From the IMG/VR virus record IMGVR_UViG_3300046008_000898, positions 1 through 47,731 of that record: a stretch of 47,731 nt of DNA; one strand, 5' to 3'. This document shows positions 1,186 through 47,731 of this stretch, in pieces. The notes beneath the pieces were generated by a model. That model saw only the letters and a list, made by a program, of their open reading frames with translations. It ran no database searches and was not told the DNA's origin. Every line of letters begins with the position of its first letter. Within the stretch, counting starts at the first letter, position 1. This DNA comes from a virus. The position numbers and the translations under genes were made by a program.

Positions 1186-2436
1186 TTATCCTTTGTTGCA
1201 GCCTTTTGGAATTAACCATGATGTAACTGGTTTTATATCTTTTGCATATTGCCCAACTGGGATAGATTCACCAGTTAAACGCTCAATATCATTAACAGTC
1301 ACTAAGTAACTGTCCAATTTTTTACGAGTAGCATCCTTTGAATTAGGTACAACCCAAGCAATCGCCTGTTCACTTTGACCTGTCCCCCTTACAATAACTT
1401 TCCAGAACGCATCAGGTGTTTTCACTCCGTGAGATTGCACAAAATAATCATCTACTGGGTTATTGCCCCAGATAACACCACCAATAACTAAAAGTTCATC
1501 AATATCGCGGTAGCATTCGATAATTTCTTCTGTTTGCAACCACGCTCCACGATTCATGTTTGCCGCTTGAGGCAAAATGTTGGTCATGTTATTAGTATCT
1601 TTAATAGCTTCTGCTGAATAATCCAAGTGGTTTGCAGGTACTAAATGCCCTCTGTCATAACCTTTACCATACGTTTTTGCAGTGAATTGTTGGCATTGTG
1701 TAGGCATATTTTTATCTAAAACAAACTTCTCAACACGCGGGAATGAACCTGCATCGTGTTGCGCGTTATATTGAAACTTAACTGCACCTCGTTTCTCACA
1801 ATCAAGCCAAATCGTGAAGCCTTCATATTTCAATTCAACAAAATCAGAAGGCAGCGTTATACAGGATGTTTGAGCTAGATTTAAAATTTGCCCTTTGGCA
1901 CATGTCGGTGGAGTGATACATGCCGTTTGAGATGTATTTAAAACTTGTCCGTTAGTACACGTTGGCGGTGGTGGATTGATACACGCTGTTTGAGCTGTAT
2001 TTAAAATTTTTCCATTGCTACATGTTGGTGGTGGCGGATTGATACACGCCGTTTGGGCTGAATTTAAAATTTGTCCGTTAGTACATGTTGGCGGTGGTGG
2101 ATTGATGCACGCTGTTTGAGCTGTATTTAAAATTTTTCCATTGCTACATGTTGGTGGTGGCGGATTGATGCACGCTGTTTGAGCTGTATTTAAAATTTGT
2201 CCGTTAGTACATGTTGGCGGTGGTGGATTGATGCACGCTGTTTGAGATGTATTTAAAATTTGTCCATTAGTACACGTTGGCGGCGGTGTATAAACTGGCG
2301 TTGTAACTGGTGAGTTATGACAATGATAACTGCCTGTTGATTTTTGAGTATGACATCCGCTTGAATCAGTTCTACCGCTATGTGCAAATACTTGAGCCGA
2401 TAACAATGTTAATGTTACAAAAGTTAAAATTTTCAT
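1186..2436 (-). CDS. secreted DNA/RNA non-specific endonuclease with YHYH-like head and Cys-rich tandem repeats
   Basis: 416 residues. A signal peptide (about 1-18, MKILTFVTLTLLSAQVFA) is followed by a His/Cys-rich YHYH-like segment (HSGRTDSSGC...GSYHCH, 19-40). Then come seven tandem repeats of about 21 residues of the type PPPTCTNGQILNTAQTACIN, each with two Cys (about 48-195). The C-terminal half is a NUC1-type beta-beta-alpha-Me nuclease with DRGH near residue 260 (GYDRGHLVPANH) and metal-site context NMTNILPQAANMNRGAW. The likely role is hydrolysis of nucleic acid outside the cytoplasm. It runs against the flanking phage genes, has its own -10 box, and looks like a lysogenic-conversion moron. 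Confidence 0.85.
   Translation of the reverse strand: MKILTFVTLTLLSAQVFAHSGRTDSSGCHTQKSTGSYHCHNSPVTTPVYTPPPTCTNGQILNTSQTACINPPPPTCTNGQILNTAQTACINPPPPTCSNGKILNTAQTACINPPPPTCTNGQILNSAQTACINPPPPTCSNGKILNTAQTACINPPPPTCTNGQVLNTSQTACITPPTCAKGQILNLAQTSCITLPSDFVELKYEGFTIWLDCEKRGAVKFQYNAQHDAGSFPRVEKFVLDKNMPTQCQQFTAKTYGKGYDRGHLVPANHLDYSAEAIKDTNNMTNILPQAANMNRGAWLQTEEIIECYRDIDELLVIGGVIWGNNPVDDYFVQSHGVKTPDAFWKVIVRGTGQSEQAIAWVVPNSKDATRKKLDSYLVTVNDIERLTGESIPVGQYAKDIKPVTSWLIPKGCNKG
1855..2285 (-). repeat. tandem 63-bp coding repeats in the nuclease gene
   Basis: Seven units of about 63 bp (21 codons; the one nearest the catalytic domain is shorter) encode the Cys-rich linker. Neighbouring units alternate between CTNGQILN and CSNGKILN forms and are nearly identical at DNA level (for example the unit around 2047 versus that around 2173). 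This suggests recent expansion by unequal crossover or slippage, so copy number may vary between strains. Confidence 0.9.
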
Positions 2437-2449
2437 TCATCACATCTTT

Positions 2450-2490
2450 AGAATAATTATAAAAAGTGTATTGTTTAGTTTTTATAATCA
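2450..2490 (-). promoter_or_regulatory. probable promoter of the nuclease moron
   Basis: On the minus strand a consensus -10 box TATAAT lies at 2461-2456, about 20 bases before the start codon at 2436. No good -35 is seen at 17 bp. The region is very AT-rich. It suggests independent expression in the lysogen. Confidence 0.4.
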
Positions 2491-2635
2491 GAACTCAAAT
2501 AAATAATTTTTGACATTCTAATCCACGCGGGTTTAACATTGCGCCGCTTTCACGAGAAAGCACTGGCTTAGACACCAGTTTTAAAGAGACGTAACGCCGC
2601 ACGATAGACAAGGCTTTTTTTGTGCCTACAGTTTT

Positions 2636-2661
2636 TTGAAGTTTGCCTTTTATGGTAGAAT
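2636..2661 (+). promoter_or_regulatory. extended -10 promoter for the C4/antirepressor leader
   Basis: TGG directly precedes TAGAAT (2656-2661), forming an extended -10 (TGn-TAGAAT). A loose TTGAAG at 2636 is too close to be a proper -35. Transcription would start near 2667, at the first strand of the C4-like structure. Confidence 0.5.
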
Positions 2662-2755
2662 TTCAGTGTTAGGAGTTGTTGAGAATACCCAATATCAACA
2701 GCAGTTTTCTTTTTAGCTGTGTCTAACCTCCTAACGCCACTTCGGTGGTATTTTT
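2662..2755 (+). ncRNA. c4: C4-type antisense RNA
   Basis: The leader folds as a closed multi-stem junction. GTTAGGAG (2668-2675) pairs with CTCCTAAC (2728-2735), enclosing GTTGA/TCAAC and GCAG/CTGT hairpins. Then follow CCAC-TTCG-GTGG (2737-2748) and TATTTTT. This matches the layout of C4 RNA of phages P1/P7, which is cut from the antirepressor transcript and pairs with it to block antirepressor translation. The position directly before a KilA-N antirepressor gene fits. The assignment comes from structure and context; an Rfam search was not possible. Confidence 0.68.
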
Positions 2756-2778
2756 AGACAAAAATAAAAGGCATTAAA

Positions 2779-3681
2779 ATGAACACATCAATCGTTACAC
2801 TTCAATACAATAACTTCCCTGTCTTATTTCAAAAAGACGCTTCAATAAATGCAACTGCGATTGCAAAGCAATTTAACAAATCACCAAAAGATTATTTGCG
2901 CCTTGATCGCACAAAAGATTACATTGAAGCCGTTAGGAGAAATCGCCTAACGGAAGAAAATCAATTAGTTACAATCAATCAAGGAGGAACACCAGAAGAA
3001 CAAGGAACTTGGATTCATCGTTTTTTAGCAATCGATTTTGCTCGCTGGTTAAATTCTGATTTTGCGGTTTGGTGTGATATGCAAATTGAATCACTGTTAA
3101 AACCCGTCCCAAACGCCTTGCGCGATTTACCGCCAAAAACTTTAACGCCTGCGATGTTGCGTCACATTGAAAAGCGCATTACTCACTTGAACAAAACGCA
3201 AGTGGGTAGCACTTATGCCAGCCTTGGCAGAATGATTAAAGAAAAATTCAACGTCAACGAACGCAAAGCGATTCCAATTCATAAATATCGTGAAGTTTGC
3301 GTGTTGCTTGGTTGTGAACCCGATGAAAAAGCGTTGCAGGGGGAACTTGTTGAACCTGCAAAATTGGAATATCAACCACCAAAAGGCATGGTGTTGATTG
3401 CTGAAAGTGAACTTTCGACATTGCAAGAAAGACGTAAAACCGAATGGAATGGTGACGGTTATGCGTCAATGATTTTGGGTATAAATGACAATTCGCGTTT
3501 AGTCATCAATCCTACGGGAGATGTAACAACGATTATGCGATTAACTGAAAATGATTTTGTCGGAACATTTGAAACGATTGTGCGCGAGTTAAAACTTCGT
3601 GGTTATCATGTTATCCAAGATTGCCCACAAAACAAACTTGAAACGATTGGTAAAATTGTGACGGCGAAATTTGAAGCGTAA
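2779..3681 (+). CDS. KilA-N domain antirepressor
   Basis: 300 residues. The N-terminal third is a KilA-N DNA-binding domain (SINATAIAKQFNKSPKDYLRL, then TWIHRFLAIDFARWLNSDFAVWCD at about 75-98). The rest resembles phage antirepressor/regulatory C-terminal regions. In P1-like systems such a protein inactivates the phage repressor and so promotes lytic growth. It begins 31 bases after the C4-like structure and ends before a terminator at 3692. Because the phage repressor here lacks a cleavage domain, this protein is a strong candidate for the inducing factor. Confidence 0.82.
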   Translation: MNTSIVTLQYNNFPVLFQKDASINATAIAKQFNKSPKDYLRLDRTKDYIEAVRRNRLTEENQLVTINQGGTPEEQGTWIHRFLAIDFARWLNSDFAVWCDMQIESLLKPVPNALRDLPPKTLTPAMLRHIEKRITHLNKTQVGSTYASLGRMIKEKFNVNERKAIPIHKYREVCVLLGCEPDEKALQGELVEPAKLEYQPPKGMVLIAESELSTLQERRKTEWNGDGYASMILGINDNSRLVINPTGDVTTIMRLTENDFVGTFETIVRELKLRGYHVIQDCPQNKLETIGKIVTAKFEA

Positions 3682-3691
3682 CGATTGACGT

Positions 3692-3730
3692 AAAAAAACC
3701 ACGCGCCTGTTTTGGGTTGCGTGGTTTTTG
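3692..3730 (+). terminator. intrinsic terminator after the antirepressor
   Basis: ACCACGC pairs with GCGTGGT, followed by a T run (GTGGTTTTTG). Near-identical to the terminator at 4063-4104, including most of the loop. Confidence 0.85.
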
Positions 3731-3768
3731 TTAAACTTCAAAAAACTAAAACATCAATAGGTTAAAGA

Positions 3769-4047
3769 ATGCCAAAATTAAACATAAATGAATTACTCGA
3801 TGTTCGTCTTTGCAAAAACGATGTTCGCTCAAATGAACCCCCTACACTAATCTTTATTTTTAAAAATGAAAATGTGAGTGAAAACGGAACTTTCGATGAA
3901 GAATTTTTAAACCATTTTTCACAAAAAGAACAGGATGAATTTTTTGAACACTTTGAGCATTTTTGTATCTCTAAAAAGTACGAGAAGTGTTTTTTACCTG
4001 CTTATATGTCATTGAATAATTGGTTATCTAAATTGAATCTGAACTAA
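3769..4047 (+). CDS. hypothetical protein in a terminator-bounded cassette
   Basis: 92 residues, acidic, rich in Phe and Glu (for example QDEFFEHFEHFCISKKYEKC). No signal peptide or membrane segment, and no family recognised. It stands alone between two almost identical terminators, which isolates it from the antirepressor upstream and the late genes downstream. That arrangement fits a moron or a regulator expressed on its own. Confidence 0.6.
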   Translation: MPKLNINELLDVRLCKNDVRSNEPPTLIFIFKNENVSENGTFDEEFLNHFSQKEQDEFFEHFEHFCISKKYEKCFLPAYMSLNNWLSKLNLN

Positions 4048-4062
4048 ATATAATTCATTTTC

Positions 4063-4104
4063 AAAAAAACCACGCGCCTGTTTAGGGTTGCGTGGTTTTT
4101 TTTG
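4063..4104 (+). terminator. intrinsic terminator, second copy
   Basis: Same ACCACGC/GCGTGGT stem as at 3692, with one loop change (TTTAGGG against TTTTGGG) and a longer T run. It closes the 92-residue gene and lies just before the late structural genes. Confidence 0.88.
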
Positions 4105-34700: not shown

Positions 34701-35102
34701 TTAGGCGTGCTTTAACTGATTACCAGCATTGCTTGCGCTGAATTTATCAGCCATTGACTGTAAAAACGAAACATCATCAACTGTAATTTGATTTGATTTG
34801 TATTTCTCAAGTGTATCTTCAACAAATGCTCTGACTTTAGGATTTATCTTTTGCCATTCTGCAAAATCAATTACTGGCGGTGCTTGTTTATCACGCGCTT
34901 TCATCTCTCCTTCACCTGTTGCAAGCCATTCAGCATCAACGCCTAATATATCAGCAATTTGCGGTGTATAACCTGAGCGAATTCCTTTTTTGCATAAGTG
35001 TTGAATACTTGTTTGAGAGATTCCAACTGCTTTTGCTAATTTACTTTGGTTATATCCTGCGTTGCTAATCGCCATTTCTAACCGTTCACCGTATGTATTC
35101 AT
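34701..35102 (-). CDS. short cI-type phage repressor (XRE HTH, no peptidase domain)
   Basis: 133 residues from ATG 35102, with GGAGA upstream. A longer open frame reaches into the operator and is not used. XRE HTH at about 5-60 (YNQSKLAKAVGISQTSIQHL, then CKKG...), then DILGVDAEWLATGEGE, typical of phage repressors. The C-terminal region (about 75-133) is short and helical. No S24/LexA Ser-Lys cleavage domain is present, so SOS cleavage is unlikely and antirepressor control is favoured. Confidence 0.85.
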   Translation of the reverse strand: MNTYGERLEMAISNAGYNQSKLAKAVGISQTSIQHLCKKGIRSGYTPQIADILGVDAEWLATGEGEMKARDKQAPPVIDFAEWQKINPKVRAFVEDTLEKYKSNQITVDDVSFLQSMADKFSASNAGNQLKHA

Positions 35103-35141
35103 ACTAAATTCTCCAGTAAAAAATAATGCTTTCAACGCTGA

Positions 35142-35171
35142 TTTATACAGCAATAAACAATACATCTACAA
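35142..35171 (-). promoter_or_regulatory. repressor promoter overlapping the operator
   Basis: On the minus strand TTGTAG (35171-35166, inside the palindrome), 18 bases, then TATAAA (35147-35142). Repressor bound to the palindrome would cover this -35, so autoregulation is likely. Confidence 0.5.
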
Positions 35172-38621: not shown

Positions 38622-39578
38622 ATGAATTACAAAGATTTGGCTACGGAAATTAAAAGGGCAGCAAAAGCAAAAGGAGTTTTTATTGCTGAATTGGCAAGGC
38701 TAACGGATTGCGGTGAAAACTTGGTAACGGATTGGGAAAATGGATTTAAACCTACGCACAACAAAACAGTTAAAGCACTGTTCAAAATTGTAAATCACCT
38801 AAAAATAAACACTGATAATTTTGCTGATTTTGAAACTATAGGCGGAAGAATCGAAGCGTTTAGAGTAAAAAAACAACTAACTATTAGCGAACTCGCTGAA
38901 CTAACAAATCTATCAACGATGTCAATAGGAAATTTTGAGAAAAACAATAGAAAACCAAGCGCAGAATCATTAACCGCTCTTTGCAATGCGCTAAAAGTTA
39001 TGCCAACTGACATTATGTTTGCCGAAAAGAAAACCACCGCACCAATCCGCAACGGTTTAGTTGATTTGCCAAAAAAACTAAACACAAATCAATCTGACGT
39101 TAAAACCATGTCATCAATCGAACTCGTGAAAATCATTAACGACATGAGAGAGGATGGTGTGGCGGAATTACGCCATGACCATTTCATGACAAAAGTAGAA
39201 AAAGTGCTTGGAGCAGATGCCCCAAAATTTCGGGGCATCTATTTAGACGCTTACAAACGCGAAAAACCCTGCTACGACCTACCAAAACGTGAAGCGCATT
39301 TAATGGTTATGTCCGAAAACTACAAAGTTCAAGCGGCTGTTTATGACCGAATGGTTGAACTTGAAGGAAAAATCGAAAATCAACAAATTCAAAATCAAGA
39401 AATTGACCTTCTTTCGCCTGAAGTTTTTGCATACGGAAAAAAATGCAAAGAAATGTTCTCAGGAATTTTAAAACTAAGAGGTTTTGAGTACCAAAATAGA
39501 GTTGATAAAGCGATTTTTAACAAATTTGGAATTGAAGCCTACACGCACAAACAGACACAGCTTCGTTTAGTTAAATAA
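38622..39578 (+). CDS. double XRE-HTH regulator fused to Rha-like domain
   Basis: 318 residues. HTH 1 at about 15-50 (FIAELARLTDCGENLVTDWE), HTH 2 at about 75-130 (LTISELAELTNLSTMSIGNF; ENNRKPSAESLTALC-like). From about 165 there is a Rha-type phage regulatory domain (MSSIELVKIINDMREDG; YKREKPCYDLPKREAHLMVM). The C-terminal helical part (about 255-318) resembles phage antirepressor ends. It thus joins repressor-like DNA binding to an antirepressor-like module. GAGG precedes the ATG. Confidence 0.7.
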   Translation: MNYKDLATEIKRAAKAKGVFIAELARLTDCGENLVTDWENGFKPTHNKTVKALFKIVNHLKINTDNFADFETIGGRIEAFRVKKQLTISELAELTNLSTMSIGNFEKNNRKPSAESLTALCNALKVMPTDIMFAEKKTTAPIRNGLVDLPKKLNTNQSDVKTMSSIELVKIINDMREDGVAELRHDHFMTKVEKVLGADAPKFRGIYLDAYKREKPCYDLPKREAHLMVMSENYKVQAAVYDRMVELEGKIENQQIQNQEIDLLSPEVFAYGKKCKEMFSGILKLRGFEYQNRVDKAIFNKFGIEAYTHKQTQLRLVK

Positions 39579-45587: not shown

Positions 45588-46092
45588 AAAGAGTCTCAAA
45601 ATCGGGTGAAACAAAAAGTTCATCAAGAGAGTATCTGAATTTGTTACGAATAGATTTAATTTGCGCCCAAGAATGCTCAATGGGATTCAAATCAGGTGAA
45701 TAAGTGGGCAAAAATTCAGGAATACAACCCGCTGATAAAATACTTTGCAAAATGTCTTTGCGTTTATGAAATGTAGCATTATCCATCACAATCACGCTGT
45801 TTTTGGGTACTTTCGGTAATAAGTCTTGTGTCACCCAGGCAAAAAAAGTATTAGCATCGACATTGAGTGCAAATAATGCCACCGTCACCAATAAGCCGTT
45901 GAGTAATGCGCCAATGACATTAGTACGACCTTTGGCTCCCCAATTCAATTTACCAAAACAACGTTCACCGATTTTTGAGTATCCATGAGAGCGTGTACTT
46001 TCATGAGCAAAACCACTTTCATCAACATAAACAATGGCTCTGCCTTCAGATTTGTATTTCTCAATTTTGAGTTTAAATTCTTTGCGCAACAC
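45574..46092 (-). CDS. IS630-type transposase, DDE ORF
   Basis: 172 residues from GTG 46092. Catalytic motifs: YVDESGF (first Asp), VIVMDNATFHK (second Asp), and PTYSPDLNPIEHSWAQIKS (Glu). The reading frame is open upstream through TLKHPKADEVLRKEF, showing that it continues from the first ORF by a frameshift at the A9 run. The stop codon lies within the terminal repeat. Confidence 0.92.
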   Translation of the reverse strand: MLRKEFKLKIEKYKSEGRAIVYVDESGFAHESTRSHGYSKIGERCFGKLNWGAKGRTNVIGALLNGLLVTVALFALNVDANTFFAWVTQDLLPKVPKNSVIVMDNATFHKRKDILQSILSAGCIPEFLPTYSPDLNPIEHSWAQIKSIRNKFRYSLDELFVSPDFETLFMMR

Positions 46093-46093
46093 C

Positions 46094-46432
46094 TCATCTG
46101 CCTTGGGATGTTTTAGTGTTTTTTTTTCGACTAACGCCTAATCGTTTCAAGGCATAACGCATTCCTGAAGCACTTACGCAAAAACGTTCTGCCCGTTCGT
46201 AAATGAAATCATCTGGATGTTCTTCTACATCTTTTTTCAAGGCTTCCATATCGATTTTTTGTGCAGGTCTATTTCGCTTGAATACAGGATCTGGATTGCT
46301 TTTCCAGCGCGAAACACTTTCCTTTCCAACGCCAAAACGTTTTGCAGTTTCTTCATTTGTCAGACCTTCCTTTTCCTTTACCGAAAGCAGTTTTTTTCTG
46401 AATTGTGCTGGATATGCCACATTAACCCCCAA
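46094..46432 (-). CDS. IS630-type transposase, HTH ORF
   Basis: 112 residues from TTG 46432, same protein as at 139-477. It carries the DNA-binding domain. The sequence SRKKNTKTSQGR at its end crosses CGA-AAA-AAA-AAC. A +1 (or -2) slip there joins to the DDE frame, so both ORFs can make one full transposase. Confidence 0.88.
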   Translation of the reverse strand: MGVNVAYPAQFRKKLLSVKEKEGLTNEETAKRFGVGKESVSRWKSNPDPVFKRNRPAQKIDMEALKKDVEEHPDDFIYERAERFCVSASGMRYALKRLGVSRKKNTKTSQGR

Positions 46433-46472
46433 ATGAAGGCATTATCTCATCGTATTATGGTGCGTTAGCTAT

Positions 46473-46552
46473 ATCATAGTTTTTTAAGTTTTAAGGTTGA
46501 AATTTTTCGGGAGAGCGGAGAGCAAGTTGTGTAAATGTTAATTTTGCCATTT
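46473..46552. other. short non-coding host DNA beside the IS
   Basis: Host sequence between the IS and the hpnN stop. AT-rich at the IS side (AGTTTTTTAAGTTTTAAGG). No gene or clear terminator is seen. Confidence 0.6.
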
Positions 46553-47731
46553 TCAAACCTTTTTCCCACTCCAAGCAGGCAACACAATCAACGAACAAAT
46601 CACGGTAAAAAATAACCCAATTGATAACAATAAGCCCATGCTCGCCATGCCTTGATGATTGGTAAAAGACAAACTTGAAAAGCTGCACAAAGTCGTAATC
46701 GAACTGAAAATAATCCCACGCGTTGTACTGCTGTGTAACAAATTTTCGTCTTCACTTTGATTAAAATGCAAACGGTGCATAATCAAAATACTGCTATCAA
46801 TCCCCATTCCCAATAACAACGGCAATGCAATCACATTAGCAAAATTAAATGGATTATCTAGCAACACATTTGTCGCACCAGTTAATAACGCGGCGAGCAT
46901 CAAAGGGGCGATAACTAACGCGGTGTGCTTGAAATTGCGGTAAATAATCAAAAGTAATAATGTAATTGCCAAAAATGCGCCACCAAATGCTTGCACAAAT
47001 GCTTTCACTACCGCATCGCCGCCAGCTTCATTCGCAATTGGCAAACCTGAAACGGTGTTGTCAACACTTTGAACTTGTGCCACAAATTCTTTCAAATTTG
47101 CATCGATATTTTGGTCTTTTTCAGGTTGAATTAGCACTTTATAAAATCCATCTTTACTAACCCAACGTGAGCGAATATCCTCCGAAATATCATCAATTCC
47201 AAACGCTTTCGCGTTTAAACTTGTTCGCAAACGTTCCAATGTGTAAGGCAAAAGTCCTAGCATATTTTTTTCAATTGCTTTAAAAAATTCAGGTTCATCA
47301 TTATGCGAGTGCAACAAAATTTCAATATGACTTTGCAATTTTGTGAGAGTTTCAATTTGTGCATTTTGCGTTTTATCCGAAATGACTTGTTTTAATTGTT
47401 CATTGAATTTTACCATCGCGTCACGTTGTCCATGATTTTCGGCTAACGAAACGTTGAAATTTTCAAGTTGATTGCCCAACATTAAATTCAAATCGTCAAT
47501 AATGGCTAATTTTTCATCTTGATTATCAGCAACCAAATTACTCAAGGTAATTGCTTCATGTACGGCAGGTTGCGTTTTCATTTTTGTTGCTAACGCATTT
47601 GCCGCTTCCAAATTGTAAACTAAACCTGTTACAGCAAAAGGCGAATCATTTTTCGCTTGCAACAGTTCTTTAATCGTCGAAACCGATTCACTTTTTGGGT
47701 CACGCAAATTTATCGGATTCGCATCAAACGT
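46553..47731 (-). CDS. hpnN: HpnN-like hopanoid-associated RND transporter, C-terminal part
   Basis: At least 392 residues, continuing past the right window edge; the frame is open at 47731 (FDANPINLRDPKSESVSTI). A periplasmic domain is followed by a transmembrane block from about residue 235: FGGAFLAITLLLLIIYRNFK, LVIAPLMLAALLTGA, ANVIALPLLLGMGIDSSILI, GIIFSSITTLCSFSSLSF and SIGLFFTVICSLIVLPAW. The MGIDSSILIMHRL stretch is typical of MMPL/HpnN RND proteins, which move hopanoids to the outer membrane. This is a host gene. Confidence 0.82.
   Translation of the reverse strand, partial: TFDANPINLRDPKSESVSTIKELLQAKNDSPFAVTGLVYNLEAANALATKMKTQPAVHEAITLSNLVADNQDEKLAIIDDLNLMLGNQLENFNVSLAENHGQRDAMVKFNEQLKQVISDKTQNAQIETLTKLQSHIEILLHSHNDEPEFFKAIEKNMLGLLPYTLERLRTSLNAKAFGIDDISEDIRSRWVSKDGFYKVLIQPEKDQNIDANLKEFVAQVQSVDNTVSGLPIANEAGGDAVVKAFVQAFGGAFLAITLLLLIIYRNFKHTALVIAPLMLAALLTGATNVLLDNPFNFANVIALPLLLGMGIDSSILIMHRLHFNQSEDENLLHSSTTRGIIFSSITTLCSFSSLSFTNHQGMASMGLLLSIGLFFTVICSLIVLPAWSGKKV

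Follow-up and report, generated by a model that had tools for sequence, protein, structure and literature searches.

The window analysed here, the whole 47.7-kb stretch of an IMG/VR virus record, encodes a lambda-type portal, a large terminase, an integrase and a short CI-like repressor. The leader region of its KilA-N gene is situated between a minus-strand nuclease gene and the head genes. The nearest KilA-N proteins occur in Methylococcaceae assemblies (e.g., Methylovulum L091, 69% identity over 90 residues), which points to a possible host in this family. An earlier note on this DNA had read the leader and gene as a C4-like antisense RNA controlling a KilA-N antirepressor. The closing stem, the two inner hairpins, the terminator-like hairpin, the extended -10-like sequence and the adjoining KilA-N gene it described are all present in the sequence; a better promoter-like site (2510-2539), an upstream target hairpin (2562-2579) and a downstream target (2754-2760) had been missed. 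The elements are organized as follows:

2510-2539, plus strand: predicted promoter TTGACA-N18-TAACAT, upstream of the whole leader (consensus scan, 10/12)
2547-2579, plus strand: two a1b1/IsrK-like hairpins, CTTTC-ACGA-GAAAG and ACTGG-CTTAGACA-CCAGT, the second being the upstream target hairpin
2568-2575, plus strand: site a1, TTAGACAC, in the loop of the upstream hairpin (8-nt complement of the a' strand)
2596-2625, plus strand: attenuator/terminator-like segment GCC-GCACGATAGACAA-GGC-TTTTTTT-GTGCC (pattern in relatives, counterpart in P1)
2644-2653, plus strand: TGCCTTTTAT, perfectly complementary over 10 nt to the ribosome site of KilA-N, ATAAAAGGCA, at 2764-2773 (predicted fold, pairing)
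2653-2661, plus strand: extended -10-like TGGTAGAAT, just 5' of the C4-like RNA (sequence only)
2668-2735, plus strand: C4-like RNA, a three-way junction (fold z-score; hit by covariance model R1)
2668-2675 and 2728-2735, plus strand: closing stem of the C4-like RNA, GTTAGGAG and CTCCTAAC
2677-2700 and 2701-2720, plus strand: inner hairpins 1 and 2 of the C4-like RNA, followed by the unpaired a' strand up to 2727
2703-2716, plus strand: putative b', the loop region of hairpin 2, AGTTTTCTTTTTAG (analogy with relatives)
2720-2726, plus strand: a' target-recognition strand TGTCTAA, unpaired, just 5' of the 3' closing strand (complement of a1 and a2)
2736-2754, plus strand: terminator-like hairpin GCCACTTCGGTGGT-ATTTTT, between the C4-like RNA and site a2
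2754-2771, plus strand: site a2, TTAGACA (2754-2760; 7-nt complement of a'), with the presumed b2/ribosome site AAAAATAAAAGG
2779-3681, plus strand: gene for a 300-aa KilA-N domain protein, presumably the one regulated (PF04383, E 1.2e-20; PHROG 129, transcriptional regulator)
34701-35165, minus strand: short CI-like repressor of 154 aa with only a helix-turn-helix (PF12844, PHROG 4)

The extended -10-like sequence was not listed by the promoter scan, which requires a -35 box. By analogy with the P22-type and annotated ant genes found at the same place elsewhere, the KilA-N protein would act as an antirepressor, and we infer that the CI-like repressor is its possible target. Elsewhere in the window, the gene at 38622-39578 encodes a 318-aa regulator that has a helix-turn-helix and resembles Ant in its C-terminal part (PHROG 63, 8235), on sequence a possible second antirepressor.

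The surroundings of the locus have features of their own. The minus-strand gene at 1186-2436 encodes a DNA/RNA nuclease that looks secreted and carries, N-terminal to the catalytic domain, a tandem repeat with a unit of about 21 residues (e.g., PPPPTCTNGQILNTAQTACIN). Downstream of the KilA-N gene, two terminator-like hairpins (3692-3729 and 4063-4100) that are 97% alike stand on either side of a small orphan gene (3769-4047), as if gene and hairpins formed a mobile cassette. Near both ends of the record lie IS630-type copies (1-528 and 45956-46482) of 99.4% identity. A gene for a membrane protein of the MMPL type (46553-47707) comes after the copy at the record's end, and a break or misjoin of the record at this IS630-type element is probable.

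Fold and complementary sites of the leader

The C4-like RNA has a minimum free energy of -18.6 kcal/mol, with a z-score of -2.8 against dinucleotide shuffles and equal stability in 3 of 200 shuffles. The earlier note had assigned the anti-ribosome role to CCUCCUAAC, which turns out to be the 3' strand of the closing stem; its pairing with the ribosome site is worth only -2.3 kcal/mol. As a targeting strand it was likewise discarded: its sole exact complement lies inside the KilA-N gene at 2932 and is not kept in relatives. The extra copy of GTTAGGAG inside that gene (2932-2939) is not conserved in relatives and was taken as chance. Judged by complementarity, the targeting strand is TGTCTAA, probably joined by the loop of hairpin 2.

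The a' strand matches a1 over 8 nt, whereas matches of at least 8 nt are found in 2.2% of shuffles, and it matches a2 over 7 nt (at least 7 nt in 0.8% of shuffles); both together arise at a frequency of 1e-4 in dinucleotide shuffles of both target regions. Site a2 is short (7 nt) and lies within A/T-rich sequence. Against every other leader compared, the window's a' strand gave no match longer than 6 nt. The duplex of the upstream a1 hairpin segment with the b'-a' strand is predicted at -23.2 kcal/mol, with 1.2% of shuffles as good. The energy of the a2b2 duplex in the window is not better than in shuffles (17% as stable), and the contiguous matches of b' to b1 and b2 are of only 5 nt.

A further pairing connects TGCCTTTTAT with the ribosome site. 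In the predicted fold, this perfect 10-nt pairing encloses the C4-like domain (shuffle p 0.023), and the leader might act purely in cis, TGCCTTTTAT folding onto the ribosome site and the hairpins attenuating transcription, without a separate antisense RNA. Only some relatives show similar pairing (the five loci L014, L023, L024, L169 and L174), and the near relatives L010, L090 and L175 do not, whereas the matching of a1 and a2 to a' is kept in most elements. Nor is a long-range fold-back general, the permutation p being 0.009 on the mean and 0.053 on the count of long matches. A purely cis-acting leader is therefore unlikely, but fold-back and antisense RNA could operate together, and the modelled fold-back on the KilA-N ribosome site is a possible second layer of control.

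Covariance models and relatives

In the Rfam search of the window no family scored above threshold, and C4, c4-2 and c4-a1b1 were unmatched. The C4 model (RF01695, threshold 45 bits), which the earlier note had named as a check, gave no match in 2400-3800 even at E 10. This negative is real, since the same model recovers the C4 of P1 at 68.8 bits; it leaves the mechanism unsettled, because C4 recognizes its targets through short strands that differ from phage to phage. At E up to 10, the sole match on the window element was sRNA-Xcc1 (RF02221), whose 22.7 bits are below the gathering threshold of 53. The models of c4-a1b1 (RF03163) and isrK (RF01394) did not match the upstream hairpins, though the two-hairpin shape is present. 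BLAST of the leader returned short chance-level matches against phages and none against plasmids.

A covariance model (R1) was built from 20 relatives (KilA-N-linked and other sRNA-Xcc1 members, and near relatives), with the window left out. Its top match is the window element at 31.5 bits (E 6e-6, the E-values of this model being rough), the next best reaching 13.5 bits. The structure is supported by covariation: both sides change in 16 of 21 pairs, 0-1 of 500 shuffles are as good, and the score lies above all slid versions. The P1 C4 was not found by R1, so that the two lineages are joined by layout and not by sequence score.

Relatives were gathered via the KilA-N protein; among viral contigs, a single-protein query found none, while an alignment query did find relatives. 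Above its Rfam threshold, sRNA-Xcc1 is positioned directly 5' of related KilA-N genes in L091, L016, L027 and L102, and members scoring 67-74 bits that directly precede such genes carry a1/a2 sites. In L093 it lies about 680 bases before the matched domain, ahead of a longer KilA-N frame. Matches to c4-2 (RF02944) occur around related KilA-N genes as well, above threshold and elsewhere in the locus in L014, and just below threshold in L025 and L065. With further sRNA-Xcc1 matches, drawn from 9 genomes or records plus 369 genomes belonging to a single class, the comparison set comprises 48 elements with 40 distinct a' strands, five of the 48, window included, having been added by eye.

An element's own upstream and own downstream sites both match its a' strand over at least 6 nt in 26 of the 40 distinct elements, compared to a mean of 2.8 and a maximum of 9 in 10,000 permuted strand-leader pairings. 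The Rfam-hit elements alone give 23/36 (permutation mean 3.4, maximum 10), a figure free of by-eye choice because these elements came solely from Rfam hits. Where both a sites are present, b' matches the segment after a1 and the segment after a2 over the ribosome site; this matching is clear in most relatives and better in own than in other leaders (p below 1e-4). The attenuator pattern GAYAG...TTTTT...TGCC is found in 22 of 47 elements versus 3 of 180 control windows. Downstream of the elements are genes for KilA-N proteins, P22-type antirepressors, SymE toxins and unknown small proteins; proteins with the P22 antirepressor domain (PF10547) are preceded by the same RNA in, for example, Pasteurella canis. 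Outside the tests, the same sites recur in four named phages (Rac-SA53, Aaphi23, Acinetobacter phage 4316 and Pmp3), where the gene that follows is annotated ant (antirepressor) or KilA-N.

The published view of sRNA-Xcc1 in Xanthomonas/Xylella is that of a trans-acting sRNA with host targets (PMC2996969; PMC12189769); carried over to the window, it would make the neighbouring KilA-N gene incidental. Such an RNA does not predict self-matching flanking sites in constant order and spacing before many different genes, and we regard this explanation of the window element as very improbable. Chance hairpins in an A/T-rich intergenic stretch, with which the only moderately unusual single-sequence fold (z -2.8) would agree, are scarcely credible given the leave-one-out model match, the conserved site order and the permutation tests. 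As to the proposed C4-ant arrangement, the layout holds (self-complementary sites, relatives, P1 control), the Rfam C4 match does not, the element standing nearer to sRNA-Xcc1/c4-2, and the antirepressor role is drawn from analogy.

Other leaders were encountered along the way. In four loci near sRNA-Xcc1 matches (L181, L183, L206 and L207), the RNA with its a1/a2 and b1/b2 sites stands ahead of genes for small toxins of the SymE type (PF08845 in both of those tested), and b' extends over the ribosome site. The antisense RNA known for SymE is SymR, from which an antitoxin RNA of the C4 type would be distinct. A different leader RNA precedes the KilA-N genes of Pseudomonas phages; in it, a hairpin loop is the 9-nt complement of the ribosome site (L005, which is phage D3 orf11, L059, L062, L080, L088, L133 and L134); a base change in phage D3 (GATGAGCGA for GATGAACGA) is matched by a change in the leader hairpin loop. 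The leader of HK97 gene 73 (L007) and that of L008 combine a CCAAGAG/CTCTTGG stem with a strand that complements, over 8 nt, CTCATATC ahead of the ribosome site; this may be yet another kind of antisense element.

Proposed mechanism and comparison with known systems

We propose that the leader at 2510-2779 is likely to be a complete, sequence-divergent antisense module of the C4 type known from P1. Its structure, the a1/a' and a2/a' complementarity and its family membership are secured at the level of sequence, and from them we infer how the module may be expressed and processed and how it may act. A transcript starting from about 2545 would contain the two small a1 hairpins, the attenuator, the C4-like RNA, a2, the ribosome site and the KilA-N gene. 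RNase P trims the C4 RNA to about 77 nt; the C4-like RNA of the window could be freed by termination at 2736-2754, by processing, or arise from its own start. TGTCTAA, probably together with the loop of hairpin 2, would pair with a2 and the KilA-N ribosome site and thereby keep KilA-N from being translated in the lysogen. Competition for the same strand may come from the upstream a1 hairpin or from a short RNA that stops at the attenuator, like IsrK in Gifsy-1. Once the balance is shifted, the KilA-N protein would be made and, as an antirepressor, would oppose the short CI-like repressor, probably leading to lytic growth.

With somewhat less assurance, we favor the broader view that sRNA-Xcc1 and its diverged members constitute a second, portable C4-type lineage with its own flanking target sites, serving KilA-N and P22-type antirepressors in phages and SymE toxins at other genomic places, in some cases with a ribosome-site fold-back lock. 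The logic of P1 C4 would then extend to a phage with its closest KilA-N relatives in Methylococcaceae and to a sequence class caught by no Rfam model. The first target of sRNA-Xcc1, discussed as a virulence RNA in Xanthomonas/Xylella, would probably be the gene just downstream. Moreover, the short a' strand varies from element to element, with 40 distinct cores, and could confer phage-specific immunity; immunity specificity differs between P1 and P7.

The P1 record, our positive control, annotates a1, b1, C4, a2 and b2 ahead of icd and ant, and our complementarity search, run on it, finds TTGACAG and GTTAGTG on either side of C4. The window shares with the P1/P7 C4 (RF01695 with RF03163, c4-a1b1) the three-way junction, the unpaired a' before the 3' closing strand, the upstream a1b1 hairpins and attenuator-like segment (in P1 between b1 and C4: GCGG, a T-run and TGTCC), site a2 with a presumed b2 at the downstream ribosome site, and the regulator gene next to it. 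The c4 promoters of P1 lie at the place that corresponds to the window's predicted promoter. In P1, however, icd lies between the site and ant, while in the window the KilA-N gene follows directly and adjoins head genes; P1 Ant is also a protein distinct from the KilA-N protein, and the window has no match to the Rfam C4 sequence model.

IsrK-anrP of Salmonella Gifsy-1 (RF01394) likewise has a short upstream RNA with a terminator, read-through into the antirepressor mRNA and complementary segments, but it differs by orf45 and translational coupling, and the window lacks an Rfam isrK match. There, the antirepressor mRNA is translated about 140-fold more when the short upstream RNA is given in trans (PMC4825925). 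C4-like RNAs are also known in number from Acinetobacter baumannii (PMC5320573). The c4-2 RNA, a member of the C4 clan, is found in loci of related KilA-N genes, yet its model does not match the window.

The closest counterpart by model score, sRNA-Xcc1, has the same junction, the a1/a2 sites and the adjacency to a KilA-N gene, while hairpin 1 is reduced in the window. It stands outside the Rfam C4 clan and has been published as a virulence-linked trans sRNA. In a Xylella strain, C4 and sRNA-Xcc1 are listed as neighbouring annotations, unlinked (PMC12189769), and in the literature covered, largely open-access and without the 2011 description of sRNA-Xcc1, we found no paper discussing sRNA-Xcc1 as C4-like. 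Placed among these systems on its sequence and layout, the window element is C4-like in working, outside Rfam C4 by score, and a diverged member of the sRNA-Xcc1 group.
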